Below, piece by piece: positions 5,749 to 51,457 of a stretch of 64,000 nucleotides of DNA. This DNA comes from Bradyrhizobium sp. 200 (GTDB taxonomy: Bacteria > Pseudomonadota > Alphaproteobacteria > Rhizobiales > Xanthobacteraceae). How positions within the stretch are numbered: the first letter of the stretch is position 1; every line of letters starts with the position of its first letter. The stretch is from positions 8,724,001-8,788,000 of the forward strand of contig NZ_CP064689.1 of assembly GCF_023100945.1 (NCBI RefSeq), read 5' to 3'. The position numbers were made by a program, and so were the translations under genes. The notes under the pieces are model-generated. The model saw only the letters and a program-made list of their open reading frames with translations. It had not been told where the DNA came from and searched no databases.

Positions 5749-5813
5749 GAACCCAGACTAGCACATCAGCGCAGGAAATTGAAGGCAACGCGCGAGGAGC
5801 GAGCCGGGCCCGC

Positions 5814-6185: not shown

Positions 6186-6253
6186 GATCGCCGGCGAAAG
6201 ATAGGCCGGTGTTGCCCATAACCGGCGGATGGAGCTGGCGACAGGCTAAAGCC

Positions 6254-12362: not shown

Positions 12363-12710
12363 TCAATCCTCCGAAGTTCGCGGCTGATTGATTCGATTTC
12401 GGGCGATCAGGAGACCAAGAACACATCCCATCAACACCCCCGGTAGCCAACCAAGGGAAAACCCCAAGAAGCCGAGCATGCCGAAGATGAGTGTTAGGAT
12501 TAGCGTGATCGCATTCATACCTACACTGTTGAATAGGGCGAAGTATATTAGTGATGGTCCGATAACCATTGCTGTCGTCAAAAGCAGGGAATCTGGACGT
12601 CGAAATCGAGAGCGGCCGTAAATTGTCCCGGCGATGAGTCCGATCATCAACCAAATTTGCACCTGCGGCGCGTTCGCCATATCTCTCAAAAATATGAAAA
12701 ATTCAGCCAT
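12363..12710 (-). CDS. Small hypothetical membrane protein
   Basis: 115 residues with three hydrophobic segments (about 17-33, 45-62 and 66-100) and a charged C-terminus. No family recognised. An isolated gene surrounded by degenerate sequence. Confidence 0.6.
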   Translation of the reverse strand: MAEFFIFLRDMANAPQVQIWLMIGLIAGTIYGRSRFRRPDSLLLTTAMVIGPSLIYFALFNSVGMNAITLILTLIFGMLGFLGFSLGWLPGVLMGCVLGLLIARNRINQPRTSED

Positions 12711-13130
12711 GATTTTTCCCAGAGCGCTAAGAATCCAGAACGCTAGCTACGTTTTCCGCCCTAGCTCATCCGAGCTGACGATATACCTTGCATGGCTAAT
12801 TAATGCCCAAACAGCATTCATCAATTCCGTCCGAAACGCTTAAAACTTGATGCCAAGCTAAAACGCACATCATGACTTGCTCCACCGCAGCTCACATCCG
12901 AACCAATCTACGGCAGAGCTGAAATGCTCTGCTTTTCCTTAACTGGCTGCATTGGGCCAACAGCGGAAGCGAAGCCTCCGCTCAACGATTGCGCGGACCT
13001 TCACCCGCTGACGGTTGGCGTTCGTAGTTCTGTAACCTTTGGATGTGTAGTCTAGCTTTTCAAATGAGCGAAGACCGAGCGGAAAAATCACCATTCCCGT
13101 TGTACAACCTCACAGCCCCGCAGCGTATGA
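12711..13130. other. Noncoding stretch
   Basis: No gene or clear structure is seen between the small membrane protein and the next fragment. Confidence 0.4.
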
Positions 13131-13376
13131 ATGTCCGACTGGCGTCCACCAGAACCTCCCGCTATCCCACGGGGGTGCGTGCTCGCCCTCGCAACTCTCT
13201 TCTTTATTGTTTTGACCGTCGTAGCTCTCGTCTCGACTTGGTTAGCCACCGCAATATCGAACAGTTCATTACCTACCAACGACAAGTTCTGATTCACGGT
13301 GATATCGGTCGGCCTTTGGGCTGTATGGTTGGCATGCGCGGTTCTCATCGTCCGCGCTCTACAGAAATCAAACTAG
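13131..13376 (+). pseudogene. Small two-span membrane protein with an in-frame stop
   Basis: ATG at 13131 opens a frame with a strong membrane segment (LALATLFFIVLTVVALVSTW). It meets TGA at 13290-13292 and then continues in the same frame through a second membrane segment (VISVGLWAVWLACAVLIVRAL) to a stop at 13374. The TGA may replace a Trp codon. No ribosome binding site is obvious. Family unknown. Confidence 0.4.
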
Positions 13377-13403
13377 ACCTTTCAGGCAAATGACGTCTGC
13401 TTC

Positions 13404-13497
13404 GGGTCAATCGCGTCGGTTTGACTGCGTACCGCCGATTTCCGCTCTGCCCCCGTCAACGGACATCGTCAGGTCGGCCCGGCAGGTCCGTTTCGTG
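13404..13497 (-). repeat. Dispersed repeat, minus-strand copy
   Basis: Read on the minus strand it gives the family pattern: ACGATGTCCGTTGACGG, then GCGGAAATCGGCGG, then AAACCGACGCGATTGACCC. Confidence 0.6.
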
Positions 13498-13579
13498 CCA
13501 TTTCCGACCTAGGCGTACGTAACCGACCAGACATTCCGATGCAAAATCGCTCAAAGCAGAACGGCAGCTCACCCGTCAC

Positions 13580-14476
13580 TCAACGTTTCGACAGGAACTC
13601 AATCACGGCAGCGCTGAATCCAGCCGGATCGCGAAGAGGCGCATCGTGATTAACATTACGCAGAATGACCTTGCGGGCGCCGGGAATGCACTTGCTGAAC
13701 GCGTCATTGATCAGCCTCCAGGTTGCAGACGATTTCTCCCCTCCTAGGACTAGCGTCGGCCGACTGAAATTCTTCAGTGTGTCGCATGTGATCGCGGTTG
13801 GCGAAGCCGCGAACAACAGCGGGGTGGTCCGGGAATTGTCGAGCCAAATCGTCTGCGCTGCTCGCGGCTCCCGGTCGAACCCGCCGTGTGGGAGGTAGAA
13901 TACCCCCTCTAGCAGTAGCCGGGTCGCTTGGACCGCGTCACCGGCGTTGTTCGCAGCGACGGCCGGACCAAAAATTTTGCTGCGATCCTCGAGCGCTTCC
14001 TTTTCCTCGGGGCTATCGGCTGAGAGAACTTCCCACACGGCCGGCTCGTAAAGAATCAGGCTGCGGACCAGTGAAGGATTCTTCAACGCCGCTTCCGTGG
14101 CCACCGCACCGCCGTAGGACCAGCCGACGAGATGAACCGGTCCAGTGTTAACCGCCGTGATTAGCTTTGCGAGATCGCTGGCATGGTTCACAACGCCGAA
14201 TTGCTTCCCATCATCCTTCCAGGCGCCAAACCCGAAATATCTCTGGGTATAGGCGACGAACCTATACTTCTTGGCAATCTCGTCTCTGATCGGTTCCCAG
14301 GCGCGAAGGTCGGAAATTGCTCCATGGATAAAGACGATCGGCTCGCCTGAGCCCTGCTCCACATAAGGCAGGCGAACCCCGTTCACCTCGACTTCTTTGG
14401 TCGATGGGCCCGACATTGCACTGGCCGGGACAAGAAGGCACGATAGTAAAAGTGCGACTGCGGACGGATGAGCCAT
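13580..14476 (-). CDS. Exported alpha/beta hydrolase
   Basis: 298 residues with a signal peptide (about 1-20) and an alpha/beta-hydrolase fold. The oxyanion strand is IVFIHGAISD, the nucleophile elbow GWSYGG and the catalytic His lies in NVNHDAPL; an acidic residue in LVLGGEKS may complete the triad. A strong GGAGGAG precedes the ATG. Substrate unknown. It is divergent from the winged-helix/hydrolase pseudogene, an arrangement that suggests the latter once regulated it. Confidence 0.88.
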   Translation of the reverse strand: MAHPSAVALLLSCLLVPASAMSGPSTKEVEVNGVRLPYVEQGSGEPIVFIHGAISDLRAWEPIRDEIAKKYRFVAYTQRYFGFGAWKDDGKQFGVVNHASDLAKLITAVNTGPVHLVGWSYGGAVATEAALKNPSLVRSLILYEPAVWEVLSADSPEEKEALEDRSKIFGPAVAANNAGDAVQATRLLLEGVFYLPHGGFDREPRAAQTIWLDNSRTTPLLFAASPTAITCDTLKNFSRPTLVLGGEKSSATWRLINDAFSKCIPGARKVILRNVNHDAPLRDPAGFSAAVIEFLSKR

Positions 14477-14631
14477 TGTCTCCTCCCTAGCTTGCCCTTG
14501 TAGCGTGCCGTCGATTGTGCCTCCCCCGGTCCGGCCGCGCTTTGCCGTGACCTTTATTTCTTATTGCGATACCATTGATTTGCACGGCGGAGCCGTTGTT
14601 CGACCGCCTTTGCTCGCACTGGAGTGCACTC

Positions 14632-15600
14632 TTGGCGTACCTTTTTGGCGGCATGATTCTCGATGCCGAGCGGCGCGAGCTGCGGTCGGGGGCGAAGTTG
14701 ATTCCGGTCGAACCGCAGGTGTTCGACATTCTAGTTTTCTTGATTCGGAATCGCGACCGTGTGGTCAGCAAAGACGATCTCCTCACGGCCGTTTGGGATG
14801 GGCGCATGGTTTCGGAGTCCGCGATCGCAGCTCGGATCAATGCCGCTCGGCGCGCGGTCGGTGATGATGGCGAGCAACAGCGCTGGATTCGCACCGTCAT
14901 CCGTAGGGGATTCCGGTTCATTGGCGATGTCCGCGAAGACGCAGTATTGGAGACGCGGAGTTCATCGGTTGAGGCCGCCGCCCGTCAGGTGCCGTGTCAT
15001 CCCTCCCGCGGTCAAGAAATCACATTTTGCCGGACTGCGGACGGGATTAACCTTGCCGTGGCATGTGTCGGCCAAGGCATGCCTCTCGTGAGTATTCCGA
15101 CCTGGCTTACCCACCTTGAATACGACTGGCAGAACCCAGGCCGGGCGCCGCTCTGGCGTTTCCTCGCCGATCGCTTCCGGCTCATTCGCTTCGACGGTCG
15201 AGGTTTTGGGCTTTCCGATCGCGACATCACCGACATTTCCCTTGCAACGTTCGAACGCGATCTAGAAGCAGTGGTTGGTGCGTTGCATTTGCACCGCTAT
15301 GCACTTCTGGGCATATCGCAAGGGGTGGGAACGGCTATAGCCCATGCTGCTCACTATCCCGATCGCGTCACCAGGATGGTCTTAGTCGGTGGGTTTGCGC
15401 TCGGCCGCAATAAGCGAGGCTCCCTGGAAGAGATCGAATTGGGAAAGGCCCTTGTTGCCGTCATGCGTGAAGGGTGAACGAGAACTCGGCGTTTCTGAGG
15501 ATGTTTAGCTCCGTTTTTCTTCCAAGTGCCTCGCGCGAACAGATCAAGTGGTACGCAGACCTGCTGCGCGTATCGACCTCCGCTGAAAACGCAGTGAAGA
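14632..15600 (+). pseudogene. Winged-helix regulator fused to alpha/beta hydrolase, frameshifted
   Basis: N-terminal OmpR/CadC-type winged helix (about 85 residues; EPQVFDILVFLIRNRDRVVSK, IRTVIRRGFRFIGDV), then an alpha/beta-hydrolase domain with nucleophile elbow GISQGVG. The frame stops at 15477 where a base appears lost. The next frame continues with NENSAFLRMFSSVFLPSAS, up to about 15600, where the gene is cut off. A TTG at 14632 with GGAG 7 bases upstream fits the usual family start better than the ATG at 14575. A sister fragment carrying the missing C-terminal part lies at 33.6-34.25 kb. Confidence 0.75.
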
Positions 15601-15601
15601 A

Positions 15602-16507
15602 TCATAACGGCATGGCTGCGTGTCGATTTCGGCGACCACGCGCGCTCGATTCTCGTCGGCATGAAAAAGTAGCGGCCATATCCAAAGGTGTAGATCGGCG
15701 TCTGGTTTGCCCCCTTTTGGCGTCCAATATTGACCCCACTATGGATCGATTAACTGACTGAGGCCGCGTCCGAAAAAAGATTGCCGCGACCGGGGTCAAG
15801 GTTGGACGCCGAAAGGCGTCAATGTTCGGAGCCGGAACACAATCCAGCTTTGGGGCATCGCTTTCGCCTATCGTTTCCTTTTGCGCCTGGCGCTGCTTGA
15901 TGCCAGCCTGACGGATTGGGGCGCCGCGCATCTCATCATCGTACTTGCCAGCCTCGCTACCCCACGCGTGCCAGCCGTGGCGCGTCTCACGCGAGAAGAT
16001 GTCGGCGCGCCGCCAACCCGGCGTGCGATCCGCGATCATCTGATAAAGCTCATCCGGCTTGCGGCTGTGCTGGCGCGCGATGCCGTCAAAGATCGATGGA
16101 AACGTGATCAGTGGCGGCTTTCCGATGGTGCCGATCAGGACCTGCTCGTGCATTGATCGCGTCCAAAATCCGCAACCCATACGCAGCTTCCCGCGCCTCG
16201 TGACCTTGCGCCAGACGATGTTACTTTTATACCTGACACGCCACGCTTCAAGGCAGGCGAGCGCGTCCGGCAGCATAGGTATGGTGGCCCAACACATCAC
16301 GATGGCGTCATCCTGGCAGAGATCGCGGACAGGAAGCGCCTTGATCGCGTCGAGCGGCATCACGGTGTAATGTGCCTGAGCCGACTTGCTTTGTCCGGCA
16401 CGCGAGTAGGTTTGAAATTCTCACGGCGGATCAATCAGCACGAGCCGGAATGAACGCGGCAACAACGGCTCGAAAAACCAGGGAATGATCGGCACGGTAC
16501 ACCTCAC
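15602..16507 (-). pseudogene. MT-A70-type adenine methyltransferase with stop in the DPPW motif
   Basis: The frame reads ...SFRLVLIDPP-stop-EFQTYSRAGQ, so TGA at 16421-16423 sits exactly where MT-A70 enzymes have the Trp of catalytic DPPW. Downstream the family continues well: ALPVRDLCQDDAIVMCWATIPMLP, WRVRYKSNIVWRK, GCGFWTRSMHEQVLIGTIGKP, RKPDELYQMIADRTPGW. Start GTG at 16507 or 16495 is uncertain. The last 100 residues are not family-like and overlap a plus-strand fragment at 15613-15672. Such enzymes methylate adenine in phage or plasmid DNA. Confidence 0.75.
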
Positions 16508-16712
16508 GATCCTGCCCTAACGAAATATCCACGCTGGCCACATCGCTCGGCCGAAGACCGGCAGCTCGCAATGCGAATGCTCCTGGCAACGCCTGTGAGC
16601 GCCTGTCCCGCCCTGGCAGCTTTGTCGCACCCGGCTTGTCGTTGTCCGCAAGGTAAATGACATCGCGTTCCTTGAACACGGCCGCGATCTCTTGGGTCCA
16701 GACGGCGGCCAC
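16503..16712 (-). pseudogene. Toprim-domain fragment of a primase-like protein
   Basis: A short minus-strand piece has a toprim core strand and motif ([17 protein letters not shown]). The continuation is split over other frames (KAARAGQALTGVARSIRI). Phage- and plasmid-type primases have this. It lies just upstream of the methyltransferase remnant and is probably from the same element. Confidence 0.45.
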
Positions 16713-16730
16713 ACCATGTTGCCGCGCATC

Positions 16731-16832
16731 GGCACCAATTCGAGTTCGTCGTCAATCTGAAGACGGCCAAGGCGCTCGGAATTGAACTGCCGCGGGCACT
16801 CCTCGCCATCGCCGACGAGGTGATCGAATGAC
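16731..16832 (+). pseudogene. ABC-transporter substrate-binding protein, C-terminal fragment
   Basis: The last 33 or so codons of an ABC_sub_bind-type protein: [22 protein letters not shown], then ADEVIE and TGA. This ending is highly characteristic of that family. The rest of the gene is missing; it abuts the toprim fragment. Confidence 0.6.
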
Positions 16833-16875
16833 CGCTTGTGGCCCTGACCGACCAACGTGAACTCTTCTTTCCACG

Positions 16876-16920
16876 TCGGCTGTCAGGGGGTAGACCGGAA
16901 ATGGCTGACGTATGGCCAAA
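16876..16920 (+). repeat. Dispersed repeat, short copy
   Basis: Contains GGGGGTAGACCGGAA and AAAACGACGCGACCT, the middle and right parts of the dispersed family. It lies directly before the thioredoxin-like gene. Confidence 0.45.
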
Positions 16921-17003
16921 ACGACGCGACCTGCGAGCAGGCTTGGGAAACCGTGCCCCGGCAGGCCGTCGTCAGCATATATTTGGGCAGAAGGAGGTGC
17001 GAT

Positions 17004-25292: not shown

Positions 25293-25762
25293 CCAATTGC
25301 TGACTCATGCACCGCAGCAAAAAGGGGGTCCGATTGGCCATACCGTCGGAGTGAAAACTCTGGCGGCTCCGGGTTGCGGACCGGGCCCGGTGCTGGAGTC
25401 GGCCGACTGCTGACGCAGAGATCTGTCAGACGCTTCCAATGATACCGAGATTCCAGGGCCGACACGAAACCGAATACCCCCGGCCCTCCCTGCGGAATTG
25501 ATCCGGCAGCCACATCGCATGAGGGCGCAGATGCCAACGTTCCCACGGGATTGGAGCCCGGCGGTGCGAAGTGAAGCTGGACCAACGCAGCCTTCCCATG
25601 TTGCGACCGGCCGCCTTGATATCCTGTTCGCGAATAGCCAATTTAGAAACATGTTGGAATGGGAGGACCTGACTGCACGATCAGATGAACTGACTAAGGC
25701 CGGTACCGAGCGGTAACCCGACTCGGTTCACCAGTGCGGCGGGTCATACCTTGGAGGGGATC
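25293..25762. other. Leader region of prkA
   Basis: No gene is supported; the short ATG frame at 25650-25716 is unconvincing. It holds the prkA promoter region. No clear element was identified. Confidence 0.35.
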
Positions 25763-27706
25763 ATGTATAGCGATTCGCTGTTCAGCGCTGTCGCTCGGTC
25801 CTTCGAGGCTCGAAGTCAGACCGACCTGTCGATGGCGGAATATCTGGAATCGTGTCGAACAGATCCGATGCGATACGCTAATGCGGTCGAGCGATTACTA
25901 GCTGCGATCGGTGAACCTCAGATGATCGACACGGCCAAGGACCGTCGCCTTGGCCGCATCTTTTCCAATCGGACAATACGCAGCTATCCGGCCTTCGCCG
26001 ACTTCCATGGCATGGAAGACACGATCGAGCGCATCGTTGGTTTCTTCCGCCATGCCGCGCAGGGGCTCGAGGAGCGCAAGCAGATCCTCTATCTGCTGGG
26101 TCCCGTTGGCGGCGGCAAGTCATCGCTCGCCGAGCGGTTGAAGTCGCTGATGGAAGTTCACCCGATCTATGTGCTTAAAGCCGGCGACGAGCTTAGTCCG
26201 GTGTTCGAGTCCCCGCTCGGCCTGTTCGATCCCGAAAACCTCGGACCGATGATCGAGGAGAAGTATGGCATTCCTCGCCGCCGCCTCAACGGGTTGATGA
26301 GCCCGTGGTGCTACAAGCGGCTCGAAGCTTTCGGCGGTGACATCTCGAAGTTCCGCGTGGCAAGGATTCAGCCCTCACGGCTGCGGCAGATCGCGGTAGC
26401 GAAGACGGAGCCGGGCGACGAGAACAACCAGGATATCTCTTCGCTGGTCGGCAAGGTCGATATCCGCAAGCTTGAGACCTACGCCCAGAACGACCCAGAC
26501 GCCTACAGCTACTCGGGCGGGCTCAATCGCGCCAATCAGGGCATTCTCGAATTCGTCGAGATGTTCAAGGCGCCGATCAAGATGCTGCATCCGCTGTTAA
26601 CGGCGACGCAGGAAGGCAATTACATCGGCACCGAAAATATCGGCGCGATTCCCTTCGGCGGCATCATCCTGGCGCACTCGAATGAGGCGGAATGGCAGGG
26701 CTTCAAGGCCAACAAGAAAAACGAGGCGTTCATCGACCGCGTCTGTGTCATCAAGGTCCCGTACTGCCTGCGCGTAACCGAGGAGCAGAAGATCTACGAG
26801 AAGCTGATCTCCGGCTCCGAGCTTGCGGCCGCGCCCTGCGCGCCGGCGACGCTTGAGACGCTCGCCCGCTTCTCGGTAATGTCGCGCCTGCGCAAGCACG
26901 AGAACTCGACGCTGTTTGGCAAGATGCGGGTCTATGACGGCGAAAGTCTTAAAGAGAGCGACCCCAAGGCGCGAAGCGTCCAGGAATACAAGGATGCGGC
27001 CGGCGTCGACGAAGGCATGGACGGCGCCTCGACCCGCTTTGCCTTCAAGGTGCTGGCGGCAACCTTCAACCACGACACCGCCGAGATTGGTGCCGATCCC
27101 GTCCATCTGATGTATGTGCTCGAGCACGCGATTCGGCGCGAGCAGTTGTCTGAGGAGGTCGAGAAGCGTTATCTCGAATTCATCAAGGCCGAGCTCGTGC
27201 CGCGCTATGCTGAGTTCATCGGCAACGAGATCCAGAAGGCGTATCTTGAATCCTATTCCGATTACGGCCAGAACCTGTTCGACCGTTACGTCGACTATGC
27301 AGATGCCTGGATCGAGGACCAGGACTTCAAGGATCCCGACACCGGTCAGATGCTCAGCCGCGAGTTGCTCAACCAGGAACTGACCAAAATCGAGAAGCCC
27401 GCGGGCATCACCAATCCCAAGGATTTCCGCAACGAGGTGGTGAAGTTCTCGCTGCGGTCGCGCGTTCGTAACGGGGGCAAGAATCCGTCCTGGACCTCAT
27501 ACGATAAAATCCGCGAAGTGATGGAAAAGCGGATATTCTCGCAGGTCGACGACCTGTTGCCGGTGATTTCGTTCGGCACGAAGAAGGACAGCGAGACCGA
27601 AAAGAAACACGACGATTTCGTTGCTCGGATGGTGCAGCACGGCTATACCGAACGGCAGGTCCGGCGGCTCGTCGACTGGTACATGCGCGTGAAACGGGCC
27701 GGGTGA
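25763..27706 (+). CDS. prkA: PrkA-family serine protein kinase
   Basis: 647 residues, full length for PrkA. N-terminal PrkA AAA domain with Walker A in LLGPVGGGKSSLAERLK (about residue 118), the long PrkA core, and the C-terminal kinase-like part ending VDWYMRVKRAG. ATG at 25763 follows GGAGGGG. In most genomes prkA is followed by yeaH and spoVR and the set responds to starvation or stress. Here yeaH is cut after about 60 codons and spoVR is absent. The gene sits between the two tRNA-half repeats and may be island cargo. Confidence 0.93.
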   Translation: MYSDSLFSAVARSFEARSQTDLSMAEYLESCRTDPMRYANAVERLLAAIGEPQMIDTAKDRRLGRIFSNRTIRSYPAFADFHGMEDTIERIVGFFRHAAQGLEERKQILYLLGPVGGGKSSLAERLKSLMEVHPIYVLKAGDELSPVFESPLGLFDPENLGPMIEEKYGIPRRRLNGLMSPWCYKRLEAFGGDISKFRVARIQPSRLRQIAVAKTEPGDENNQDISSLVGKVDIRKLETYAQNDPDAYSYSGGLNRANQGILEFVEMFKAPIKMLHPLLTATQEGNYIGTENIGAIPFGGIILAHSNEAEWQGFKANKKNEAFIDRVCVIKVPYCLRVTEEQKIYEKLISGSELAAAPCAPATLETLARFSVMSRLRKHENSTLFGKMRVYDGESLKESDPKARSVQEYKDAAGVDEGMDGASTRFAFKVLAATFNHDTAEIGADPVHLMYVLEHAIRREQLSEEVEKRYLEFIKAELVPRYAEFIGNEIQKAYLESYSDYGQNLFDRYVDYADAWIEDQDFKDPDTGQMLSRELLNQELTKIEKPAGITNPKDFRNEVVKFSLRSRVRNGGKNPSWTSYDKIREVMEKRIFSQVDDLLPVISFGTKKDSETEKKHDDFVARMVQHGYTERQVRRLVDWYMRVKRAG

Positions 27707-28842: not shown

Positions 28843-30755
28843 GTGCGCCGGGAGACCGGCAAGGAGTGGATGGTGCAAGTCCATCACGATGAAGGAGTAG
28901 CGAACCGCATCGACCCCGAGTCATGCGCAGATACCCGTGAGGGTATCGGCGAAGCGTTGACAGGGGAGCGCATAGGCCAGCCATTGAGCCGCGAAAGTAC
29001 CCTCATCCTGGGTGCCGACGTCGTTCCGGTGACGGAAGGCAACACGGATGGGCGCGATAACGCGAGCGCCCAGACGGCCCGGCGTGGTCTTAGACACTGG
29101 CATGTGCGCACGCTCCTTGCTCGGGAACCGGGAGATCTCATGGTCGGCCAGCGCCAGCATGCGTGCTGCACTGGTCCGCGTCGGGAAGGCGAGGAGCCGT
29201 AGCCGACGATGTACGATCATGAGAAGTCTGACCCCGCCATAGTAGCTGTGAAGCCGACGAACAAAGCCGGGCAACCGGCTGCGGAGTTGGTGGAGCCAAG
29301 GGCGGGGGCCGAGGGGAATGTGAGTCAGCAAAGCACGGGCCGGGCACAGTACCGGGGAACCGTGTCACAGGCGCTGGCGCGCATACGGCAAGCTGCAAGG
29401 CAAAGGAAGAAGGAGAAGTTCACCGCGCTCTTCCATCACGTCAGTATTGCTCACCTCGCAGAGGCATTCTCTGAACTCAAGGAGAATGCTGCAGCTGGAG
29501 TGGACGGGCTGACATGTCGGGACTACGAGCAGCACCTTGAGCGCAATCTTGAGGACCTGCATGCTCGCGTCCATCGGGGAGCGTATCGGGCACTACCGTC
29601 GCGGCGGGTTTACATACCCAAGCCGGATGGTCGGCAACGCCCGATCGCGGTCGCCGCCCTTGAGGACAAGATCGTCCAGAGGGCTACGGCTGCGGTGCTG
29701 AGCGCGATCTACGAGGAAGATTTCCTCGGGTTCTCGTATGGGTTCCGACCCGGACGCAGCACGCACGATGCGATGGATGCGCTCATGGTCGGGATCACCA
29801 GCACAAAGGTGAACTGGATACTGGACGCCGACATCCGCTCGTTCTTCGACACAGTGAGCCAGGAGTGGCTCATCAAGTTTGTGGAACATCGCGTCGGCGA
29901 CCGACGCATCATCCGCCTGATCCAGAAATGGCTCAAGGCAGGCGTCCTGGAAGACGGGATCGTGACGGTCAGTGACAAGGGGACCGGGCAGGGTTCGGTG
30001 ATCTCACCGCTTCTGGCCAATCTCTACTTGCACTACGCTTTCGACCTCTGGGCCGAGCGCTGGCGACGGCGTGAGGCTGCGGGCAATATGATCATCGTGC
30101 GCTACGCCGACGACCTCATTGTTGGCTTTGAGCACGAGACCGACGCCCGTCGCTTCCTCGACGAGATGCGTAAGCGGTTACAGGAGTTTGCACTGTCGCT
30201 GCATTCGGAGAAGACCCGGCTGATCGAGTTTGGACGCTTCGCGGTGGAAAACCGCAAGCGGCGCGGGCTCGGCAAACCGGAGACCTTCACCTTCCTGGGC
30301 TTCACCTTTATCTGCGGCAAAACTCGTCGGGGCAAATTCCAAATCAAACGGAAGTCCCGGCAGGATCGCATGCAGGCAAAGTTGCAAGCCATCAAACAGG
30401 AACTGCGACGGTGCACGCATCAGCCGATTCCCCAGCAGCGAAGATGGTTGCAGCAGGTCGTCACCGGCTACTTCAACTACCACGCGGTGCCGACAAATAG
30501 TTCGACGCTGACCGCGTTCCTATTCCACGTCACCAATCTCTGGCGGCGCACGCTACGGCAGCGGAGCCAGAAAGACTGGACGACCTAGGAGCGGATCAAG
30601 CGGTTGGCCGACGACTGGCTCCCGAAACCGCGAATCCTTCATCCGTGGCCGGAGAGTCGCTTCGCCGTTAGACACCCAAGGTGGGAGCCGTATGCCCGAA
30701 TTGGGCCCGTACGGATCTGTGCGGGGCGCGAGGTAACTCGCGTCCCTACCGCGAA
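28843..30755 (+). mobile_element. Group II intron
   Basis: Begins GTGCGCCGGGAGACC (group II 5' consensus) and ends with domain V (GAGCCGTATGCCC...GGGCCCGTACGG) and domain VI (GCGGGGCGCGAG-GTAA-CTCGCG, with a candidate bulged branch A in CCCTACCGC). The boundaries are fixed by comparing the flanking repeat with uninterrupted copies: exon ACCGGA + AGTCGGCGG matches ACCGGAAGTCGCCG at 33.07 and 55.7 kb. The 3' end is uncertain by one base and does not show the usual AY. Confidence 0.88.
29209..30588 (+). CDS. ltrA: Group II intron reverse transcriptase/maturase (premature stop)
   Basis: 459 residues. Reverse-transcriptase blocks 0-7 with catalytic YADD (MIIVRYADDLIVGFEH), followed by the thumb/X maturase domain (GYFNYHAVPTNSSTLTAF, WRRTLRQRSQKDWTT). 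TAG at 30586 is followed in frame by ERIKRLADDWLPKPRI and LHPWPESRFAVRHPRWEPYA, which is the usual C-terminal tail. The TAG therefore probably replaces a Trp codon and removes the last 30-50 residues. The RT core is intact, so partial activity is possible. Confidence 0.9.
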   Translation: MYDHEKSDPAIVAVKPTNKAGQPAAELVEPRAGAEGNVSQQSTGRAQYRGTVSQALARIRQAARQRKKEKFTALFHHVSIAHLAEAFSELKENAAAGVDGLTCRDYEQHLERNLEDLHARVHRGAYRALPSRRVYIPKPDGRQRPIAVAALEDKIVQRATAAVLSAIYEEDFLGFSYGFRPGRSTHDAMDALMVGITSTKVNWILDADIRSFFDTVSQEWLIKFVEHRVGDRRIIRLIQKWLKAGVLEDGIVTVSDKGTGQGSVISPLLANLYLHYAFDLWAERWRRREAAGNMIIVRYADDLIVGFEHETDARRFLDEMRKRLQEFALSLHSEKTRLIEFGRFAVENRKRRGLGKPETFTFLGFTFICGKTRRGKFQIKRKSRQDRMQAKLQAIKQELRRCTHQPIPQQRRWLQQVVTGYFNYHAVPTNSSTLTAFLFHVTNLWRRTLRQRSQKDWTT

Positions 30756-31986: not shown

Positions 31987-33033
31987 TTGGGTTCACGACA
32001 CAAGTGCAACACCTGCTAGGGTGTTGTGGCGATGGGACAGTGTTATGGCCAGCTCAGCCTTGAGGAGCGCGTTGAGATCTACCGCCTGCATGCAGACGGC
32101 AGATCTCAAAAGGAAATTGCGTCTGCGCTCGACCGGGCGCCGTCGACGATCAGTCGGGAACTGCGGCGCAACTCGCGACCTACCAAGGTCTGGCCGGGTG
32201 GCTACGAGCCTGTCCGGGCGCAGCAATTGGCCGAGCGCCAGCGCCAATGGGATGGCCGCTTCAAGCTGGCACGCCAGCTGGACCTGCGGAACCGCGTGGG
32301 CAAAAGCCTTGCGATGGGACATTCCCCCGAGCAGATCGCGGGCCGGCTGGCGCTGGAGCATGGTCGCGTCATCATCAGCCATGAGTCAATCTATCGTTTC
32401 ATTTATCATCGAACGGCTCAGAAGGATTACTGGCATCAGTTGCTGCCCCACCGCAAAAAGACACGAAGGCGACACGGACGCAGCCGGGGAAACTTCATCA
32501 AACAACGGCGCTCGATTGCCGAACGGCCCGCCGAGGTCGAAGGTCGCCGAACACCTGGCCATTGGGAAGCCGACTTCATGCTGTTCGCCAAATGCGGTCA
32601 GGGGCTGTTGTTTCTTCATGAAAGACAAACCCGCTTCAACATCGTTCACCGTCCGGCCGATCGGAAAGCCGGCCCCACAGCCAAAGCCATCGCCCGGAAA
32701 CTCGGCAAACTTCCAACGGCGATGCGAAAATCTATCAGCTTTGACAACGGAAACGAATTTGCCGAGCATCACAGCCTACACAAGAGCCTCGGCCTCCAAA
32801 CCTTCTTCTGCGATCCCCATAGTCCCTGGCAAAAGGGCGGGGTGGAGAACTCTATCGGACGATTACGTCGCTTCCTTCCCCGCAAAGCCGATCTCAACCT
32901 CCTCACGGCAGCCGATCTCAGGCGTCATATTCATCGCCTCAACAACACCCCGCGCAAATGCCTGGACTTCAAAACCCCTGCTGAGGCATTCTCCAAACTC
33001 AAATCAACCGTTGCACTTCAAACGTGAATCCAT
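31987..33033 (+). mobile_element. IS30-family insertion sequence
   Basis: A 1047-bp element. The ends are imperfect inverted repeats of about 24 bp: TTGGGTTCACGACACAAGTG at the left, ATGGATTCACGTTTGAAGTG (reverse-complement reading) at the right. A C-run on both sides is the likely short target duplication. Carries one full-length transposase gene. Confidence 0.88.
32032..33027 (+). CDS. IS30-family transposase
   Basis: 331 residues. N-terminal HTH (LSLEERVEIYRLHADGRSQK, IASALDRAPSTISRELRRN), a second helical domain (ESIYRFIYH), and the DDE core: Asp in GHWEADFMLF, Asp in ISFDNGNEF and Glu in GGVENSIGRLRRFLPRKAD. Typical length for IS30 is about 340. ATG at 32032 is preferred to the TTG at 32026. 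Confidence 0.95.
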   Translation: MGQCYGQLSLEERVEIYRLHADGRSQKEIASALDRAPSTISRELRRNSRPTKVWPGGYEPVRAQQLAERQRQWDGRFKLARQLDLRNRVGKSLAMGHSPEQIAGRLALEHGRVIISHESIYRFIYHRTAQKDYWHQLLPHRKKTRRRHGRSRGNFIKQRRSIAERPAEVEGRRTPGHWEADFMLFAKCGQGLLFLHERQTRFNIVHRPADRKAGPTAKAIARKLGKLPTAMRKSISFDNGNEFAEHHSLHKSLGLQTFFCDPHSPWQKGGVENSIGRLRRFLPRKADLNLLTAADLRRHIHRLNNTPRKCLDFKTPAEAFSKLKSTVALQT

Positions 33034-33134: not shown

Positions 33135-33563
33135 ATGCGGTCATGGAAATGTTGTGTAGTGCAACTGAAGGAACGGAAGTGTCTGCGCGTTTACTCGACG
33201 GCCGACGGCGAGTCCCACTTCGATGAGGTCGAAATCCCGACAACCTCTCGACAGGTTCACCCTAATGCCGCTGCATTCGAAGTGTCAGCGAAGTACGCGG
33301 CGTCAGGCATCCGTTTCACGCACATTCCGGCGGGTGCGCGACAGGTCGATTGGCATACAGTGCCGGAGCGCGTACTGACAGTGAGGCTTGATGGGTCGGC
33401 AGAATACCAGACAAGTGACGGAGATGAAAGGCGCGTACCGGCCGGTAGCTTCGTCTTGTTTGAGAACGTGGATGGCAAGGGACACAAATCGCTACATTCG
33501 CCGCAAGAACAGACAGTGCTCTGGATTAGTCTCCGCAAGGTCTCAAGAACCCTTGACGCTTAG
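33135..33563 (+). CDS. Cupin-like hypothetical protein
   Basis: 142 residues with a single cupin-type beta barrel: ASGIRFTHIPAGARQVDWHT, then VPERVLTVRLDGSAEYQTSD, VPAGSFVLFENVDGKGHKS. His and acidic residues occur in places expected for a cupin metal site. I recognise the sequence style as a recurrent small cupin of Bradyrhizobium. The start is uncertain; homologues probably begin near KCLRVYST, but no ATG lies there. Confidence 0.75.
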   Translation: MRSWKCCVVQLKERKCLRVYSTADGESHFDEVEIPTTSRQVHPNAAAFEVSAKYAASGIRFTHIPAGARQVDWHTVPERVLTVRLDGSAEYQTSDGDERRVPAGSFVLFENVDGKGHKSLHSPQEQTVLWISLRKVSRTLDA

Positions 33564-33619
33564 TGGAAAAATCGGCGGTCCGGTTTAGCCCGACTCTATG
33601 ACCGTTCATGGCGCAAAGC

Positions 33620-34250
33620 CGCCGTTCGGGCTCAGGCCGAGTTACGGCTCGACAAAAATACTTCAATTTCGTCGACGAGTGTTTCCCAGGCAGGTTAGAT
33701 GCCAGAAGCGTATGGTTTTCGCTGTCTAGCGGGACCAGTTTGGCATTCGGGATCGATGTCGCTATTGGTCGCCCTTGTTCGAAAGGGACAAGCTGGTCGC
33801 GCAGAGAATGCAGAACAAGAGTGGGCGCGGTAATCGATGAGAAGCGCCCCTGGAAATATATTTGATCGACAGCAATCCTAGAGGCAATACCACTTTCCAG
33901 CGTTAGCGCCGTCGAATGAAGGTCGCTGAACCATTTGAACTGCTCGGTGGTGGCGTTTGGTAGGAAGAGCGAACTGAACGCGCGCCAGAATGGCGACTTC
34001 ACGTCATTCGAGGCGCTCCGGATCATAGTGAGAAATGCTTTTTCCTTGTCGATCGTCTGTGGAGAGTGTCGTTTGTTGCGGCCGAGCGCATACCACCATA
34101 AATCATGAGCTTCGAAACCTGATTCGCGTTACCGGCGGCGTACGCAATGGCGGTCGCTGAGCCCCCCGATATTCCCAGCAGCGCGGACCACGGCCGTCAT
34201 AGAATACAAGTGAATGGCAATTCGCCAGACGCCGCATCAGTGTAGACGTC
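33620..34250 (-). pseudogene. Alpha/beta-hydrolase regulator, C-terminal remnant with frameshifts
   Basis: Reading leftward: LVFYDGRG, then (deletion) ALLGISGGSATAIAYAAGNA with the nucleophile elbow, KLMIYGG, a one-base shift, ALGRNKRHSPQTIDKEKAFL, PFWRAFSSLFLPNATTEQFK, then the Asp region LVLHSLRDQLVPFEQG and the His region LDSENHTLL. It is the same subfamily as the winged-helix/hydrolase pseudogene at 14.6-15.6 kb, which shares GGFALGRNKR and FSSVFLP. The DNA-binding part is lost. Confidence 0.7.
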
Positions 34251-34353: not shown

Positions 34354-35691
34354 ATGTCCGCGCTTCAGAACGTGACCTTCGGTCCACGGAGCGGTATTCT
34401 CGGCTTTCAGCCGCGGGAAGTAGGGTTGCATGTCCGGATCGGAAGAATGCATGGCGCCGGAATGGCGGGAACGGTTGAGCCCATGATCGACCAGCAAGCT
34501 TACGCACAGTACCTTCCGATCGAGAAACACGAGCTTCTCCGCACGGCGCTCGGCAGCGCCGTCAGCCATATCTTCCGCGTCGACGAGCTTCAAGATCCCG
34601 ATCGCTCGCCGCTTCCGTTCTTCGCCCAAGCGGTTGGGTTTGCGGTGATCGACAGTTGTGGGAGGCTCGAAGTCGGGTTTCCGATCCACTACTGCCTGGT
34701 CAGGTCGGACGAGAGCGCATTCTCGGTCAGACTGAACGATTGGGCGTGCGTCGCGGTTTCCTATCACTTCGCGCTGCGGCTGTTCCTCATGACGAGCGGA
34801 CTCACGTTTTCCGAACCCTTGGTTTCCTATCGACAGGATGTCCGGGTCGAAGACGACTATGAGAAACGCACCTTCATCGATCGTCAGGAGATGATTCGGA
34901 TCGTCGCTCTTTCGACGTTGATCAACGAACCGCAGCGCCCTCTGGCGAAGATGCTGACCCATGTCGCCCTGAACTTCATCGCGAACCACGAATTCACCCA
35001 TATCGTCAACGGGCATCTGCTTGGTGGCGCCGGGGCCGTCTTGGGGGAGAACGGCGGTAGGGGCGACGTCGGCAGATTGCTCGAGTTGCGTACGCTCGAG
35101 TACGACGCCGACGCATTGGCGGTGCAGATGTCCATGCACCACTTCCTCGGAATGGCCCGTGGCACTGTCGAGTGCACGCCGGACGAGATCGAGTTCCTCG
35201 GGAACGACTCTGATGCCGTTCACACGGCGTTCGCCGGCGCATGTATCGCCATGTGCATGATCGACGCACTCCAGTCGTTCTCGTTGCCGGAAAGCCCGCA
35301 CGGCCATGCTCATCCTCCCGCCACGTACCGGTTGCTGGCGATGATGTCGGCTGCCGAGAACGCGCTTGCGATACTTCGCCGGGATGGGCGGCTCTCGTTG
35401 TCTGCCGACGCGGTCCGCGCGGCGCTGACCCGCGTTGTAAGGGCGATCGAATTGGCGATCAGCGAGCAGGCCGACGCCCGACCGGATCCGCTGCTGCTGG
35501 CGGTGGAAATGGGATCGCGCAGCGAACACGATGCCGAAATATACCGTTGTTGGACGCGCCTTCGGCCGGGCCTCGCGAGATACAAGCTCGGAGGTCATTT
35601 GCTCGCTGCCGCTCAATACGACCTCGACGGAAATCCGCTTCCGAGGTCGCGGCCCGAACTTCGTCACATGATCCGGCCCGACGAATCCTAG
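34354..35691 (+). CDS. HExxH metallopeptidase-like protein
   Basis: 445 residues, no membrane segment. A zinc-metallopeptidase motif NHEFTHIVNGH (about 211-221) is followed 30 residues later by LEYDADALAVQ, placing a Glu/Asp where a third zinc ligand is expected. The remainder matches no family I know. The ATG has no ribosome binding site. The same frame stays open upstream to 34243 (YNPRGKLFLEGHERVEFLDM) without a start codon, so the gene may be cut at its 5' end where it meets the hydrolase pseudogene. It converges on the caspase gene; proteolysis or regulation of that system is an inference. Confidence 0.7.
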   Translation: MSALQNVTFGPRSGILGFQPREVGLHVRIGRMHGAGMAGTVEPMIDQQAYAQYLPIEKHELLRTALGSAVSHIFRVDELQDPDRSPLPFFAQAVGFAVIDSCGRLEVGFPIHYCLVRSDESAFSVRLNDWACVAVSYHFALRLFLMTSGLTFSEPLVSYRQDVRVEDDYEKRTFIDRQEMIRIVALSTLINEPQRPLAKMLTHVALNFIANHEFTHIVNGHLLGGAGAVLGENGGRGDVGRLLELRTLEYDADALAVQMSMHHFLGMARGTVECTPDEIEFLGNDSDAVHTAFAGACIAMCMIDALQSFSLPESPHGHAHPPATYRLLAMMSAAENALAILRRDGRLSLSADAVRAALTRVVRAIELAISEQADARPDPLLLAVEMGSRSEHDAEIYRCWTRLRPGLARYKLGGHLLAAAQYDLDGNPLPRSRPELRHMIRPDES

Positions 35692-35841
35692 GATTATGCG
35701 AAATCGAAGAGGCCATCTCGGCGCGTCGGCTTCGTCCGTTCGTTGCGGAAGGATTCGATCCATCCGCCGTCCGGAGAGCGGTTTCCTACGGTCCACCCCA
35801 TAGGCGACGAGTGACGTTGGCGGGAGCGGTCCGACGATGGA

Positions 35842-38263
35842 TCATGTCGCGGAGAAACTGTTGTAAAGCGGCTCTCGATGCTCACCGGACCGCAGTCTCA
35901 TCAGGAAGTGCGCGGCCGACAGCAGGTTCGCCGGCATTCCCGTGCGACGGACCAGGGTCGCCATGTCCACCGGTACGCCTGTCCGCGCGCTCTGATCGAT
36001 GATCTCCCGCACGTATTCCACCAACCATTCGGGCACCGTCAGCAGGGAGAGTGTCTGCTCGGCAACGCCTTCGACGATCTCCGATCGTTCCCCTCGCAGG
36101 CTGAGGACGCTGCCGGTCTCTTCGTCTTTGTTCGTGACGGCGTATCCGAGAGTGCGCCAGAACTCTTCGATTTCGGCCGCCAATCGGGGTTCGGTCAAGG
36201 AGAGGGTCACGGTGTTTCCCTCCGGGTCGGCGATGCCGCTTGAGAGGCGCAGGCCGGACTGGCGCCAACGCCAGCATGTCCATGGCGAATTCGGTTCCAA
36301 CCCGACTGCGATCGCGGAAATGCCCGCGAGACCTCCTTCCGCACCGGTGGTGGCCTCCACGAAGGCCTCGAAGCTGACCGCGAGCAGGGGAGGACGCGGT
36401 GCGATCGCAACGAATTCCTGGCCGACGGAATTCCGATCCGCCTTCGACAATTGCTTGCGCCGCAGACGCAGTGCGATCACGTCGGGTGAGTTGGGACCGA
36501 AGAGACGGGCGAGATTCTCGATCGCCATGTCGAGCACGTCGAACTCTTCCTTCGATCGCATTCTCGAACGCGATATCTTCCTTACTTGGAAGTGCGCGCC
36601 TACCAGACAATAGAGGGGATTCCTGAATCTTCCCGAGAGGAGCGCGTTCATCGTTCGCCCATCGGGGCTTGGCCCGTCCGTCGCCAGGTCGGCGATCGCC
36701 CGCTCGTAGGCATCGATCAAACCGTCGGAAGGGTCGAAGCCGGTGCCGGCCTCGCGCATCGACACGGAGGCCGTCGATAGCGAAGGCTTCCCGTCATCTC
36801 CGAGCACGATGAAGACTTGCGTATCCCAGCCGGCGACGATCGGCAGAGGCAGGAAGACGAACGAACCGTCCGGATCGTGATAGGTCAAGGTGACCGGCTC
36901 GTCGTCCATGACGGGGATGAGAGCGTTGCCGACGGACAATTCCCGGATCGACTCTCGGGCCACGGCTAACAGCTGTCCGTTGAATTCCATGTCGCCGCGT
37001 GCCGGACGGACGTTCACGAAAATGGCTTGACGCCTCGCCGGCTCAAGTTCGGCGGGTGCCCACCGGCTCGCCTCGATCGCCGGGCTCACGGGGGCTTCAT
37101 TCTCCGCCAACGTGTCGGAGAGCGGGACCGCAGAATCGCGCTTTGGCAGATCGAAGGTGACGACGGTATCTTCGGTTAGTCTCAGGCTGTGCGTGGCGGT
37201 GGCTTCGCCGTGCGCGATGTGGATCTGGTAGTCGCCTGCAGGAAGCGGACCTTCGAAACTTCCGTTCGTGCGCCCCCTGATCGTCGTGCCGCGCAGAATG
37301 ATGTGCCGGCGCTTCGAGTTCCTCGGAAGAAGACAGCCGCCGCAGGGCCGATCTGACGTTGACAGTCAGATTGTGGGTCTCGTCGACGAGCATCCTTATC
37401 ACGCTCGCGACGACCCGTTCTCCACCCTCGGGCGTGGGAGCCAGCCGCGCGATCGTCCGATCTTCGTAGACCTGGGGAATCGGCTCGGCGGTTGGCGGTT
37501 TCCGGTCCGGCGGCCCTAAGTAGATCTTCTTGTCGGTCGGAAGGGAACGGACGGTCTGATCGCGCGGTCTCGCCAGGGCGGGAACGTCGACCTTCAGGCG
37601 GGTCACGAGGTCGTTGAGCTCGATGGTTTCCTTGTCCAGGATCCTGAGCATCGCGGCGGTGAAATAGCCCTGGACCTCGCCGTCCACCACCCCCTCGAGG
37701 CCCGGCTTGTAGTGGTCGCTCGCGAAGACGATGGCATAGTTCCGGTTTTCGACCTGCGGATCTCCGCACTCGAGGTCGCTCGGTTTGCCCAAAGGAGCGA
37801 CTTGACGGACGCGGCAACAATCGAGGAAGAACAGCGCTTCCGAGAATTTCAGACAGCCGATCGCCGCTTTCACGTAGCTGTCGACGTCCAAAGCCGCTCC
37901 GGCGAGCTGGGGCGACCAGTTGGGGAGGCAGAGACATTGCCGCTGGAACGATCCCGCGGGGCTGTGCCCGTGCCCGCTGAAATAGAAATAGAACCGTCTC
38001 CGGTCCTTGCCTTCGGAAAGTTCGCGGACCTGGCTGAAGAAATCGTCGATGCCGGACTGAAGCGGAGCGAGAGGCTTCGTCACGGACGTTATGAGGTGGG
38101 CGTTAGCCGGCGGTACACCGCCGCCAAGAGGATCCGTGAGCCATTTGTGGAATCCGATCGCATCTCTTATGGGCCCCCGGAGCGACTTCTCTCCCTTGTT
38201 CCAGTTCGGATAATCGTTGATGCCTATTACGAGCGCGTAGTCGTCGGGGGCATAGTAGTTCAC
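35842..38263 (-). CDS. Caspase-like (peptidase C14) protein, split by a frameshift
   Basis: GTG at 38263 overlaps the stop of the upstream hydrolase gene (GTGA). The N-terminal p20-like domain starts DDYALVIGINDYPNW, carries His in FYFYFSGHGHS (about residue 98) and Cys in FFLDCCRVRQV (about 150). The frame turns Arg/His-rich after about 37330 and ends at 37097. In the +1 frame, sensible coding (SFEGPLPAGDYQIHIAHGEA, HSLRLTEDTVVTFDLPKRDS) runs without any start codon into the 35842-37110 frame. I infer one protein of about 805 residues: caspase, beta-sandwich (carboxypeptidase-regulatory-like), then a large domain of unknown family ending LYNSFSAT. One extra base near 37300-37335 would explain it. 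Confidence 0.75.
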
Positions 38264-39693
38264 GGCACTGCTCTCGCCATTGAGAGCAGGCTCGCCAGCG
38301 TCGGCTGATCGTCGTCGAAATCGCCGTGACGTTCGGATCGCGTCCGCAATCCTTCTTCGGCGCCGTCGTCGGACGGGGCGTAGACGACCCGGTTCTCCTG
38401 GCGCAGCCACTGCCGCACGTCGTCGAAATCGCGGCCGGCCGACGTCGTGGTTTCTCGCAGAAAACGGGCCATCCCCGCGATGGCGTCATCCGGACGGTCT
38501 TCGAAGCAACCCGAGACGAGATAGAGCAGCGATCGCGGATAGATGGATCCCAGCAGTTTGTCGTACTTCTCCCACTCGTCCGTCATCGTGAACATGCGGA
38601 ACCGATCGAATATCCGGGGTCCGCGGACTATCCAACGGGCGAACAGGTCCAAGCGTGCGGCTGGCGCCAGAAATACGACGTTGCGGAATCGGATGCGGCG
38701 TTGCTTGGCGTCGATGGCCGCCAACATCTCGCATATAGCGATCGATCCTGCGCTGTGTCCGACCAGATCAATCGTCAATGCCGGATTTGCGGCCTGACGC
38801 TGTTCGAGACGACGCAGTATGTACCCGCCTCCGTGGCCATCCACGCCCGGATCTTCGCCGTCGTCGATCCACATGCGCTCGGCCTTCGTCTTCATCGCGT
38901 CCCAGGCGAACTTCCCGACCTCGGCCAGGTACGCCGCCCGGAAAAGCTCCTCTACCGCAGTCGGTAGGGGATCGTGGTGCGTTCCGCTGCGGTAACGCCG
39001 GACGGTGGCGACGATCACGCGTGCGACGAAGAGTGCGACCCCGGCGGAGGTGAAACCCCTCTCGCCTTCGTCGGTGTCGATCCGCTGTCGGATCTGTCGC
39101 GATCCCGGCGCCCCACTGTCGATCAGATCGGGAAGACTGGTGTCGGACGAGAAATCGTATTCCAGATCCTCGGCGATCTTCGCTTCGTCCAGATCGTCGT
39201 CGGTCGGCCCCTTCGCGATAGCTTGTCCCTTCATGCCCTTCGCTTCGGCCGTCAGCATTACATCCAGCTGTCTGGTTCCCTCCTCGGTTGCCAGCATCGT
39301 TTCGATGGTCGCCGGATCCATGGTTCCTTGGGCAGCCCCCTTCGGGCTTCCCAGGTCGCCTATGCCTGCCTTGGCCAGGATCCAGGAAAGAGCCTTTCGG
39401 AAAAGCTTGGTGTTCGTGATCCCCAGGGCATTGTCGCGAACGGTCTCGAAAATGCCGGTCTCCCAGAGAAGAGCAAGCGAGGGAACCTCGCCGTACATTT
39501 TGGCCATCGCGAGCGCGACATCGAGGCCCTGCTTCTCGGAGACCAATCCTCCATGGAAGTGCAGAACGAGATGCGGTTTCGCAGGCGGCAGCTCGCCGAT
39601 GAATCGATCGACGTCCGCGGGAGCCGAAGCGAGTTTTCCGCTTGGCGCGAACGTTCCATCGTGGCCAAGATTGATCCAGCACTGCCGGCCCAT
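38260..39693 (-). CDS. Alpha/beta-hydrolase-fold (esterase/lipase-like) protein of the caspase cassette
   Basis: 477 residues, cytoplasmic. The first strand is HLVLHFHGGLVSEKQGLDVA, giving an oxyanion-type HGG. The nucleophile elbow is TIDLVGHSAGSIAICEML (Ser about 313), and the strand with VVFLAPAARLDLFARWI follows. No clear family beyond alpha/beta hydrolase. The stop overlaps the caspase GTG by four bases, so the two proteins are probably made in a fixed ratio. A membrane-lipid or acyl-ester target is possible but unproven. Confidence 0.8.
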   Translation of the reverse strand: MGRQCWINLGHDGTFAPSGKLASAPADVDRFIGELPPAKPHLVLHFHGGLVSEKQGLDVALAMAKMYGEVPSLALLWETGIFETVRDNALGITNTKLFRKALSWILAKAGIGDLGSPKGAAQGTMDPATIETMLATEEGTRQLDVMLTAEAKGMKGQAIAKGPTDDDLDEAKIAEDLEYDFSSDTSLPDLIDSGAPGSRQIRQRIDTDEGERGFTSAGVALFVARVIVATVRRYRSGTHHDPLPTAVEELFRAAYLAEVGKFAWDAMKTKAERMWIDDGEDPGVDGHGGGYILRRLEQRQAANPALTIDLVGHSAGSIAICEMLAAIDAKQRRIRFRNVVFLAPAARLDLFARWIVRGPRIFDRFRMFTMTDEWEKYDKLLGSIYPRSLLYLVSGCFEDRPDDAIAGMARFLRETTTSAGRDFDDVRQWLRQENRVVYAPSDDGAEEGLRTRSERHGDFDDDQPTLASLLSMARAVP

Positions 39694-50229: not shown

Positions 50230-51294
50230 TCAGGCAGGTCGGGACGCCGTCTCCGCCGTCTTGTCGCATTCGAAGGCGCGGCCCTTGTTGAGAACCGCCC
50301 ACGCGATCCGGGCGAGCTTGTTGGCGAGCGCAATCGCCAGCACGTTGTGGTGCAATCGTTTCTTGGCGGCTTCGATCCAAGATTTGAGGCCAAAGCGCTC
50401 CCAACACTTGACCTTGACCAGCACGACCCACGCGGCTTGCACGAACAGCGCGCGCAGGTAGCGATTGCCGCGCCTTGATATCTTGCCGAGGATCGTGCGG
50501 TCGCCGGTCGAGAGCTGTTTCGGCACCAGTCCGAGCCAGGCGCCAAAGTCGCGGCCTTTCGAGAACACGTCTCCGGTGCCGATCGCGGCCACCATTGCGC
50601 TCGAGATGATCGGGCCAATACCGGGCACCGTCATCAGTCGCGCGCAGGCCGTATCGTGACGGGCCAGCGTTTCGATCTCGCTAGACAGCCCCTCGATCCG
50701 TGCATCCAGCCGGCGCCAGTCACCCGCCAGATCTTCGATGATGCGCAACATGCGAGGCAAGATCACATCGGTGCGCGTCGCGAGGATACCCGGCAACTCG
50801 GACCGCAGGGAATGCAGGCCTTGCCGCACGGCGATGCCCCGCTCCAGTAGGAACGCACGGATCTGATTGATGACGCCGGTACGCTGACCGACCAATCGAT
50901 AGCGGACGCGGTGCAGCGCCTGAAGGTCGAGTTGATCGGCGGTCTTGGTCGCGACGAACTTCATGGTTGGGCGTTGCACTGCCTCGGCGATGGCTTCCGC
51001 ATCTCGGAAATCATTCTTCTGTCCCTTCGAATAGGGGCGCACGTATTTCGCCGGCATCAGGCGGGCGTCGTGGCCAAGCATTTGGAGTTTGCGACTGAGA
51101 TGATGCGCGCCAACGCAGGCCTCCATACCGATCAAGCACGGCGGCAGGTTGGCGAGCCGCGCTTCCACCTGGCCGCGTGACCACTTCTGCCGCAGCACGA
51201 TGGCACCGCGGTGGTCATGACCCACGATGTGGAACGAGTTCTTGCCGATATCGATGCCGATCACGGCGATCGCTGCGTTGAGTTTCTGAGACAT
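50230..51294 (-). CDS. IS110-family transposase
   Basis: 354 residues. N-terminal DEDD catalytic domain (IAVIGIDIGKNSFHIVGHDH, CLIGMEACVGAHHLSRKL, YSKGQKNDFRDAEAIAEA). The C-terminal transposase_20 domain carries LMTVPGIGPIISSAMVAAIG and FGAWLGLVPKQLSTGDRTIL with the serine typical of IS110. Start at 51294 follows AAGGAG. Full length, probably intact. The element ends are not determined. Confidence 0.93.
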   Translation of the reverse strand: MSQKLNAAIAVIGIDIGKNSFHIVGHDHRGAIVLRQKWSRGQVEARLANLPPCLIGMEACVGAHHLSRKLQMLGHDARLMPAKYVRPYSKGQKNDFRDAEAIAEAVQRPTMKFVATKTADQLDLQALHRVRYRLVGQRTGVINQIRAFLLERGIAVRQGLHSLRSELPGILATRTDVILPRMLRIIEDLAGDWRRLDARIEGLSSEIETLARHDTACARLMTVPGIGPIISSAMVAAIGTGDVFSKGRDFGAWLGLVPKQLSTGDRTILGKISRRGNRYLRALFVQAAWVVLVKVKCWERFGLKSWIEAAKKRLHHNVLAIALANKLARIAWAVLNKGRAFECDKTAETASRPA

Positions 51295-51457
51295 GGCGTG
51301 CTCCTTGTCTTGAGCGCCCCTTGCGAGCTTCTCATGCTGGCAGGGCCGGAGCACGGCCGGACCATCCCATTAGCGGTCATTTCGACACATCCACATCGTT
51401 ATCCCCGCTGACAGAAGCCCAGTCCATGTGGTAGCTCGACAATTAAGGAGATCAACT

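Follow-up and report, generated by a model that had tools for sequence, protein, structure and literature searches.

A frame-broken hydrolase–caspase–C locus in Bradyrhizobium sp. 200 and the conserved unit to which it appears to belong

The locus analysed here raises the question of whether a caspase-like gene, the alpha/beta-hydrolase gene that overlaps it and a metallopeptidase-like gene facing both belong to one system and, if only some of them do, how these may act together. It lies within a window of 64,000 nucleotides (contig NZ_CP064689.1 of Bradyrhizobium sp. 200, positions 8,724,001 to 8,788,000 of the forward strand), and positions below are those of the window unless another locus is named. 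The original prediction had treated 34354-39693 as one block; the analyses presented here resolve it into a broken unit joined to an unrelated convergent gene, with the following principal features.

38260..39693, minus strand: alpha/beta-hydrolase gene, 477 aa, with homologues over its whole length
39544-39555, minus strand: hydrolase HGGL motif
38743-38760, minus strand: hydrolase GHSAGS motif
38308-38328, minus strand: hydrolase HGDFDDD motif
37580..38263, minus strand: caspase (C14) part, with GTG start at 38263, His98 at 37970-37972 and Cys150 at 37814-37816
37299..37492, minus strand: frame-break stretch of the caspase-C gene, where homology switches frame relative to the intact relative L129
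35842..37299, minus strand: C component, the second piece of the broken fused gene, by homology to L129
34354..35691, plus strand: HExxH metallopeptidase-like gene, convergent and outside the system

The arrangement of the reading frames is as first described: the GHSAGS hydrolase and the caspase overlap by four bases (GTGA, holding the hydrolase stop and the caspase GTG at 38263), and the HExxH frame converges on the pair. The caspase carries both SGHGHS and LDCCR and clears the curated cut-off of Peptidase_C14 (PF00656; 42.0 bits against 21.4). With DUF900 (PF05990) the window hydrolase scores 17.1 bits, under the curated cut-off of 20.5, which a relative, P0058, clears with 28.9 bits; the nearest named hydrolase is P0002 from Bradyrhizobium (72%).

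Judging by gene order in relatives, hydrolase, caspase and the component that we call C are a conserved three-part unit. A profile (A1) of 30 hydrolases, run against a genome collection, found 262 places with a relative, of which the best 80 were kept; 61 genome loci from these best 80 of 262, together with 3 plasmid loci, make up the 64 loci (L019-L082) with a hydrolase in the same size class. The gene directly after the hydrolase encodes a caspase of the same family in 59 of the 64, and C is present in 56. Since the 61 genome loci were fetched by the hydrolase alone, the linkage in them is not built in; the 3 plasmid loci were picked after both the hydrolase and the caspase searches had matched them. 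This survey of neighbours thus bears out the proposal that hydrolase and caspase are encoded together. Among the five loci lacking the caspase, L052 stops at a contig end, a further 1.2 kb is present at L063, and at least 5.6 kb follows at L038, L067 and L078; the three with a caspase and no C (L048, L058 and L064) each run into a contig end, and L077 is counted among the 56 despite having its own genes in pieces. The unit is found in Alpha-, Beta- and Gammaproteobacteria, Bacteroidota and Streptomyces. In a further 19 loci (L083-L101) the hydrolase domain sits in mostly longer proteins, and here neither caspase nor C occurs in the flanking sequence available for any of the 16 that were scored, or was seen at L098-L100, which fell outside the score limit of that count. 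Catalytic motifs, on whose conservation the idea of a system had also hung, are kept: GHG is present in 69 of 69 caspase ORFs and D-x-C in 68 of 69, the last reading DTC (each scored as a pattern anywhere in the ORF, not as an aligned column), and hydrolase residues H313, S314, G316, D372, H456 and D460 are invariant among 30 aligned sequences. The enzyme thereby has what a serine alpha/beta-hydrolase needs, a GHSAG nucleophile motif with a conserved His and acid, for which either Asp is a candidate.

Caspase and C are separate genes in 48, and a single gene in 8, of the 56 loci classified. In 42 of the 48 loci with separate genes (L019-L082 and L130), C overlaps or abuts the caspase and is read in the +1 frame; 28 of the 48 caspases finish on Phe-stop. 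Coupled translation would account for this +1 arrangement more simply than a programmed +1 frameshift, because a start codon for C sits in the overlap in most of the loci listed; nor would a programmed frameshift explain the window, since its lineage has a fused gene (L129).

L129, from a genome of the same genus (G305), is the best intact relative found, and comparison with it indicates that the window copy is broken. Its hydrolase is followed, again with a four-base overlap, by one caspase-C gene of 1139 codons (ATG at 11564 to 8145 of that locus, minus strand). The first window piece matches this protein at 63% over 254 residues and is alignable only to its own residue 257, and the second matches at 41% over 479 columns, from 37299 on; the window caspase frame runs on to 37097 without family homology, the real continuation being the other frame, which ends at 35842. 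Far from being intact, as had been predicted, the caspase-C gene is on this comparison frame-broken between 37299 and 37492, through mutation or assembly error, a sequencing error being possible because the break is seen in one assembly. The window copy is probably non-functional, because caspase and C no longer share one frame. The caspase had further been credited with a long novel C-terminal region. It does lack a match in NCBIfam (36 C proteins), and Pfam (20 C proteins) has no family that it could be assigned to as a whole, but the region is a separate component, C, in another frame. In the window C has a beta-rich first part, a helical middle and an alpha+beta and helical end, and is without a tail domain. 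Two further ideas were rejected. A window TTC-GAT had been considered as a relic of the caspase/C junction; alignment A2 and the comparison with L129 put this segment inside C. That the closest caspases (P0124-P0127, 277-495 aa) are broken does not speak for recurrent decay, because the search took only proteins of 0.55-1.75 times the query length and so shut out intact fusions.

How the unit may work is suggested by the hydrolase, which in this size class carries an insert with the following positions in the window.

39337..39342, minus strand: candidate caspase cut site 1, residues 118-119, SPK/GA (predicted cleavage)
39058..39339, minus strand: acid-rich hydrolase insert between the candidate sites, 94 residues, in a region absent from L083-L101
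39055..39060, minus strand: candidate caspase cut site 2, residues 212-213, GER/GF (predicted cleavage)

The distance from HGG to GHSAG has a median of 265.5 residues (range 127-305) in 54 rows of the size class, which take in four caspase-less loci and the second hydrolase part of L081, and a median of 125 in 20 others (L083-L101 and L146), one of which reads 724. Within the extra part some 90 residues, rich in acidic side chains and poorly conserved, lie between two Lys/Arg positions; each flank position is Lys/Arg in 51 of the 54 rows, followed by Gly in 44 (site 1) and 46 (site 2) of 54. A second alignment covered 71 hydrolases, leaving out the long fusions, L146, the broken L077, the duplicate L009 and the second hydrolase part of L081. 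In it, caspase-linked hydrolases have Lys/Arg at site 1 in 65 of 66, at site 2 in 66 of 66 and at both in 65 of 66, which, the rows being related, are not 66 independent events; the exception, L080, has a caspase and yet no Lys/Arg at site 1. Both sites are kept in 2 of the 5 caspase-less rows (L038 and L052), or in 1 of 4 when L052 is left out because its contig ends: L063 and L078 lack site 2 and L067 lacks both, and site 1 of L063 is alignment-dependent, absent in the first alignment and present in the second. For at most 1 of 4 caspase-less hydrolases with both sites the hypergeometric P is 2.9e-4, a guide only, given that the rows are related.

In paracaspases an Asp two residues before the Cys helps to form the Lys/Arg pocket. 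The Asp of D-x-C, found by pattern in 69 of 69 caspases, fits a Lys/Arg specificity by analogy with these enzymes, and the insert, its flanking Lys/Arg and this Asp together predict that the caspase cuts on both sides and frees the hydrolase. We therefore favour, with moderate and by no means strong confidence, reading the window as a decayed three-component caspase system of hydrolase, caspase and C, in which the caspase would un-gate a pro-hydrolase. C would be a putative sensor or platform protein, fused to the caspase in the window lineage, which upon infection or another insult would license the caspase via its own surface or a fused bait. The caspase would then cut the hydrolase after the Lys/Arg on either side of the insert, so that the active site is freed, and the enzyme once activated, which is probably a lipase/esterase or a peptide hydrolase, would harm the cell or the invader. 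Such activation of a lipase-like bacterial enzyme by a caspase is open to direct test and would, if true, extend gated-effector logic from nucleases to hydrolases and could account for the recurrent company of caspases and alpha/beta-hydrolases.

The conserved Lys/Arg could be structural or docking features instead of cut sites. Hydrolase and caspase would then be two side-by-side effectors licensed by C, with the insert and its flanks as a structural or docking loop, an arrangement that we regard as possible if rather doubtful. It would suit the retention of the insert itself in the caspase-less L038, L063 and L067, and the available text of Kaur 2020 (PMC7159879) says only that caspase and alpha/beta-hydrolase operate together; the side-by-side arrangement does not lead one to expect that Lys/Arg should border the part that the longer fusions lack, or that at least one site should be lost in 3 of the 4 caspase-less hydrolases with readable downstream sequence.

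For an un-gated pro-hydrolase the nearest parallel is Canu, in which, according to the accessible part of its description, the caspase CanA with CanB turns the gated pro-nuclease CanC active (PMC12799240). As in Canu and the gated pro-nucleases of Hachiman and AVAST, to the extent that this text covers them, a caspase and a companion stand beside an enzyme with a gating insertion and conserved residues, and effector activation by proteolysis, shown there, is what we infer here (PMC12799240). The Canu effector, however, is an MBL-fold nuclease and here it is an alpha/beta-hydrolase, there being no MBL match in the window hydrolase, caspase, C and metallopeptidase pieces; the flanks here are Lys/Arg, mostly before Gly, and C is without a family in the libraries scanned.

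The available portion of Kaur 2020 (PMC7159879) describes further relatives in kind. In VMAP (MoxR-vWA) ternary systems it finds the caspase always paired with a neighbouring alpha/beta-hydrolase gene, as here. The present unit reads as hydrolase-caspase-C; no MoxR AAA+/vWA was found among the subset of window proteins scanned, and VMAP models were not among the Pfam matches of 20 C proteins, in a Pfam copy that may lack such models. EACC1 two-gene systems likewise join a constant caspase to very diverse C-terminal domains, of up to 50 kinds and including EF-Tu, in the same portion of PMC7159879. There, however, the partner is the small membrane protein EACC1, whereas here it is hydrolase and C, with the tail on C; the window pieces scanned gave no EACC1-type match in a Pfam copy that may lack such a model. 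Nuclease and trypsin modules, present here as a tail (L019) or a separate gene (L161), recall the NucA-trypsin conflict systems as set out in that text (PMC7159879), but in our loci caspase-C occurs both with and without them. The pairing of caspase with hydrolase, variable tails and decoys are already published for other systems in the part of Kaur 2020 available (PMC7159879), which also places S1-like domains among VMAP effectors and suggests that some domains may be decoys. The literature searched, with few preprints and no subscription papers, gave no paper recognisably dealing with the hydrolase-caspase-C operon, the insert sites or the S1, GroEL and EF-Ts tails. We class the unit as a variant of caspase-centred conflict systems and do not assign it to VMAP, EACC1 or Canu.

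In the 58 loci measured, the conserved region takes most C proteins to their C-terminus or nearly so; certain divergent ones carry a further 100-300 residues without a match. A domain scan of nine C proteins, seven of them with tails, together with the loci compared, gave nuclease plus trypsin (L019), PLD plus trypsin (L020), amidase plus papain (L081), pYEATS (L131, also L143-L145) and three core host proteins, namely S1 domains in four stretches (L129), the chaperonin GroEL (L130) and EF-Ts (L082). In L081 a single protein (12538-16965 of that locus) comprises C, an amidase, a papain-like peptidase and a second hydrolase part without an insert. Identity to the corresponding protein of the same genome is 77% for the GroEL tail and 54% for the EF-Ts tail. 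The S1 tail (residues 9-352) is 97% identical in protein, and 96.9% in DNA, to the ribosomal S1 of the same genome, G305; of 339 codons compared, 309 agree, 26 have silent differences and 4 encode another residue. Taking half of these 30 changes to have occurred in the tail, with replacements making up three in four, gives P = 0.0001, and so few residue changes make an unconstrained copy unlikely; gene conversion could be an alternative cause of the likeness. Compared with the fused copy, the G305 gene itself (rpsA, L135) has a gap of one base close to the 3' end, perhaps an assembly error.

S1, EF-Ts and EF-Tu, of which EF-Tu is the one known from EACC1 caspases, are the three host subunits of Q-beta replicase, which makes single-stranded RNA phages one conceivable trigger. 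Read from the sequence, the S1 tail sets in shortly ahead of domain 3 of its host counterpart and so holds domains 3-6. According to the available part of PMC4200798, S1 is held on the ribosome and on Q-beta replicase by two of its domains, so the tail would have the RNA-binding domains and be without the two anchor domains, a conceivable argument against such a trigger. The S1, GroEL and EF-Ts tails, three instances and so few, may be candidate baits. Caspase-C could then, as we suggest tentatively, be a new class of bacterial innate immune receptor that has captured virus-exploited host proteins (S1, EF-Ts, GroEL), whole or in part, as integrated bait and that acts through a pro-hydrolase cut twice around a gating insert. 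If the tails are bait, bacteria share the integrated-decoy trick with plant immune receptors (plant NLR proteins offer an analogy only, in that they too unite an immune protein with the likeness of a protein from the host), and the bait would reveal host proteins attacked by unknown phages.

Housekeeping or developmental proteolysis, in stress, symbiosis or envelope turnover rather than conflict, is in our view unlikely. Several relatives do lie on large rhizobial plasmids, including hydrolase, caspase and pYEATS-tailed C on pSymA of Sinorhizobium meliloti (L144; strain BL225C also carries the genes, L163), and no relative was found in the viral contigs searched, nor in the phage records searched with the L129 hydrolase, so that there is no direct phage link, a result that in itself speaks neither for nor against a defence role. 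PADLOC models matched neither the hydrolase (30 proteins) nor C (36 proteins). A housekeeping role fits poorly, however, with a rare and patchy distribution (any hydrolase match in 10 of 265 same-genus genomes, mostly weak), and swapped neighbours and nuclease tails suit conflict systems better. In particular, the same caspase-C core elsewhere adjoins an M10/M12-type metallopeptidase (L159), an S8 subtilase (L160) or a nuclease plus trypsin (L161), for which reason the hydrolase looks like an exchangeable effector.

That the metallopeptidase regulates the hydrolase-caspase pair as a third part, as originally predicted, is highly improbable: it is adjacent and convergent, and a metallopeptidase of another family (M10/M12) precedes caspase-C in L159, but it lies on the opposite strand, no homologue of it occurs in any of 95 related loci (L019-L101, L129-L131, L143-L146 and L159-L163), and its matches beyond its own genome, weak and in 4 of 257 same-genus genomes sampled, include none in a genome with a hydrolase match. 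On this distribution we take it to be an unrelated neighbour of the hydrolase-caspase-C unit. Its ORF (34354-35691, plus strand) has NHEFTHIVNGH and LEYDADALA, an HExxH with downstream EYDAD that in our judgement resembles M48. Among 8000 candidates, two members reached an E of 0.001 or lower in a protein search, the window's own and its one known homologue, P0122. P0121 and P0122 bear the precomputed label PF10463, which we take to be the Lit-like peptidase U49; hmmscan at E up to 10 gave a weak M48 match instead.

The predicted mobile setting is supported by the first and last of these transposase genes, which lie near the locus.

32026-33027, plus strand: transposase gene, HTH_38/rve
9673-10530, minus strand: transposase gene, rve/HTH_21
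50230-51354, minus strand: transposase gene, IS110-type

The window also holds a reverse transcriptase (29209-30588, plus strand) with a weak group II intron maturase match, a PrkA serine kinase gene (25751-27706, plus strand) and a predicted tmRNA gene (5798-6187, minus strand), a possible island attachment site. Beside the block, a short ORF (33526-34026, minus strand) weakly matches alpha/beta-hydrolase models in their C-terminal part and is a possible gene remnant. The source genome (G000) has 17 caspase-domain matches, that is, 16 besides the window's. An 866-aa caspase-domain protein at 8843698 of this genome resembles the caspase part only, and three same-genus genomes have proteins of 800-900 aa whose likeness is limited to the same part.
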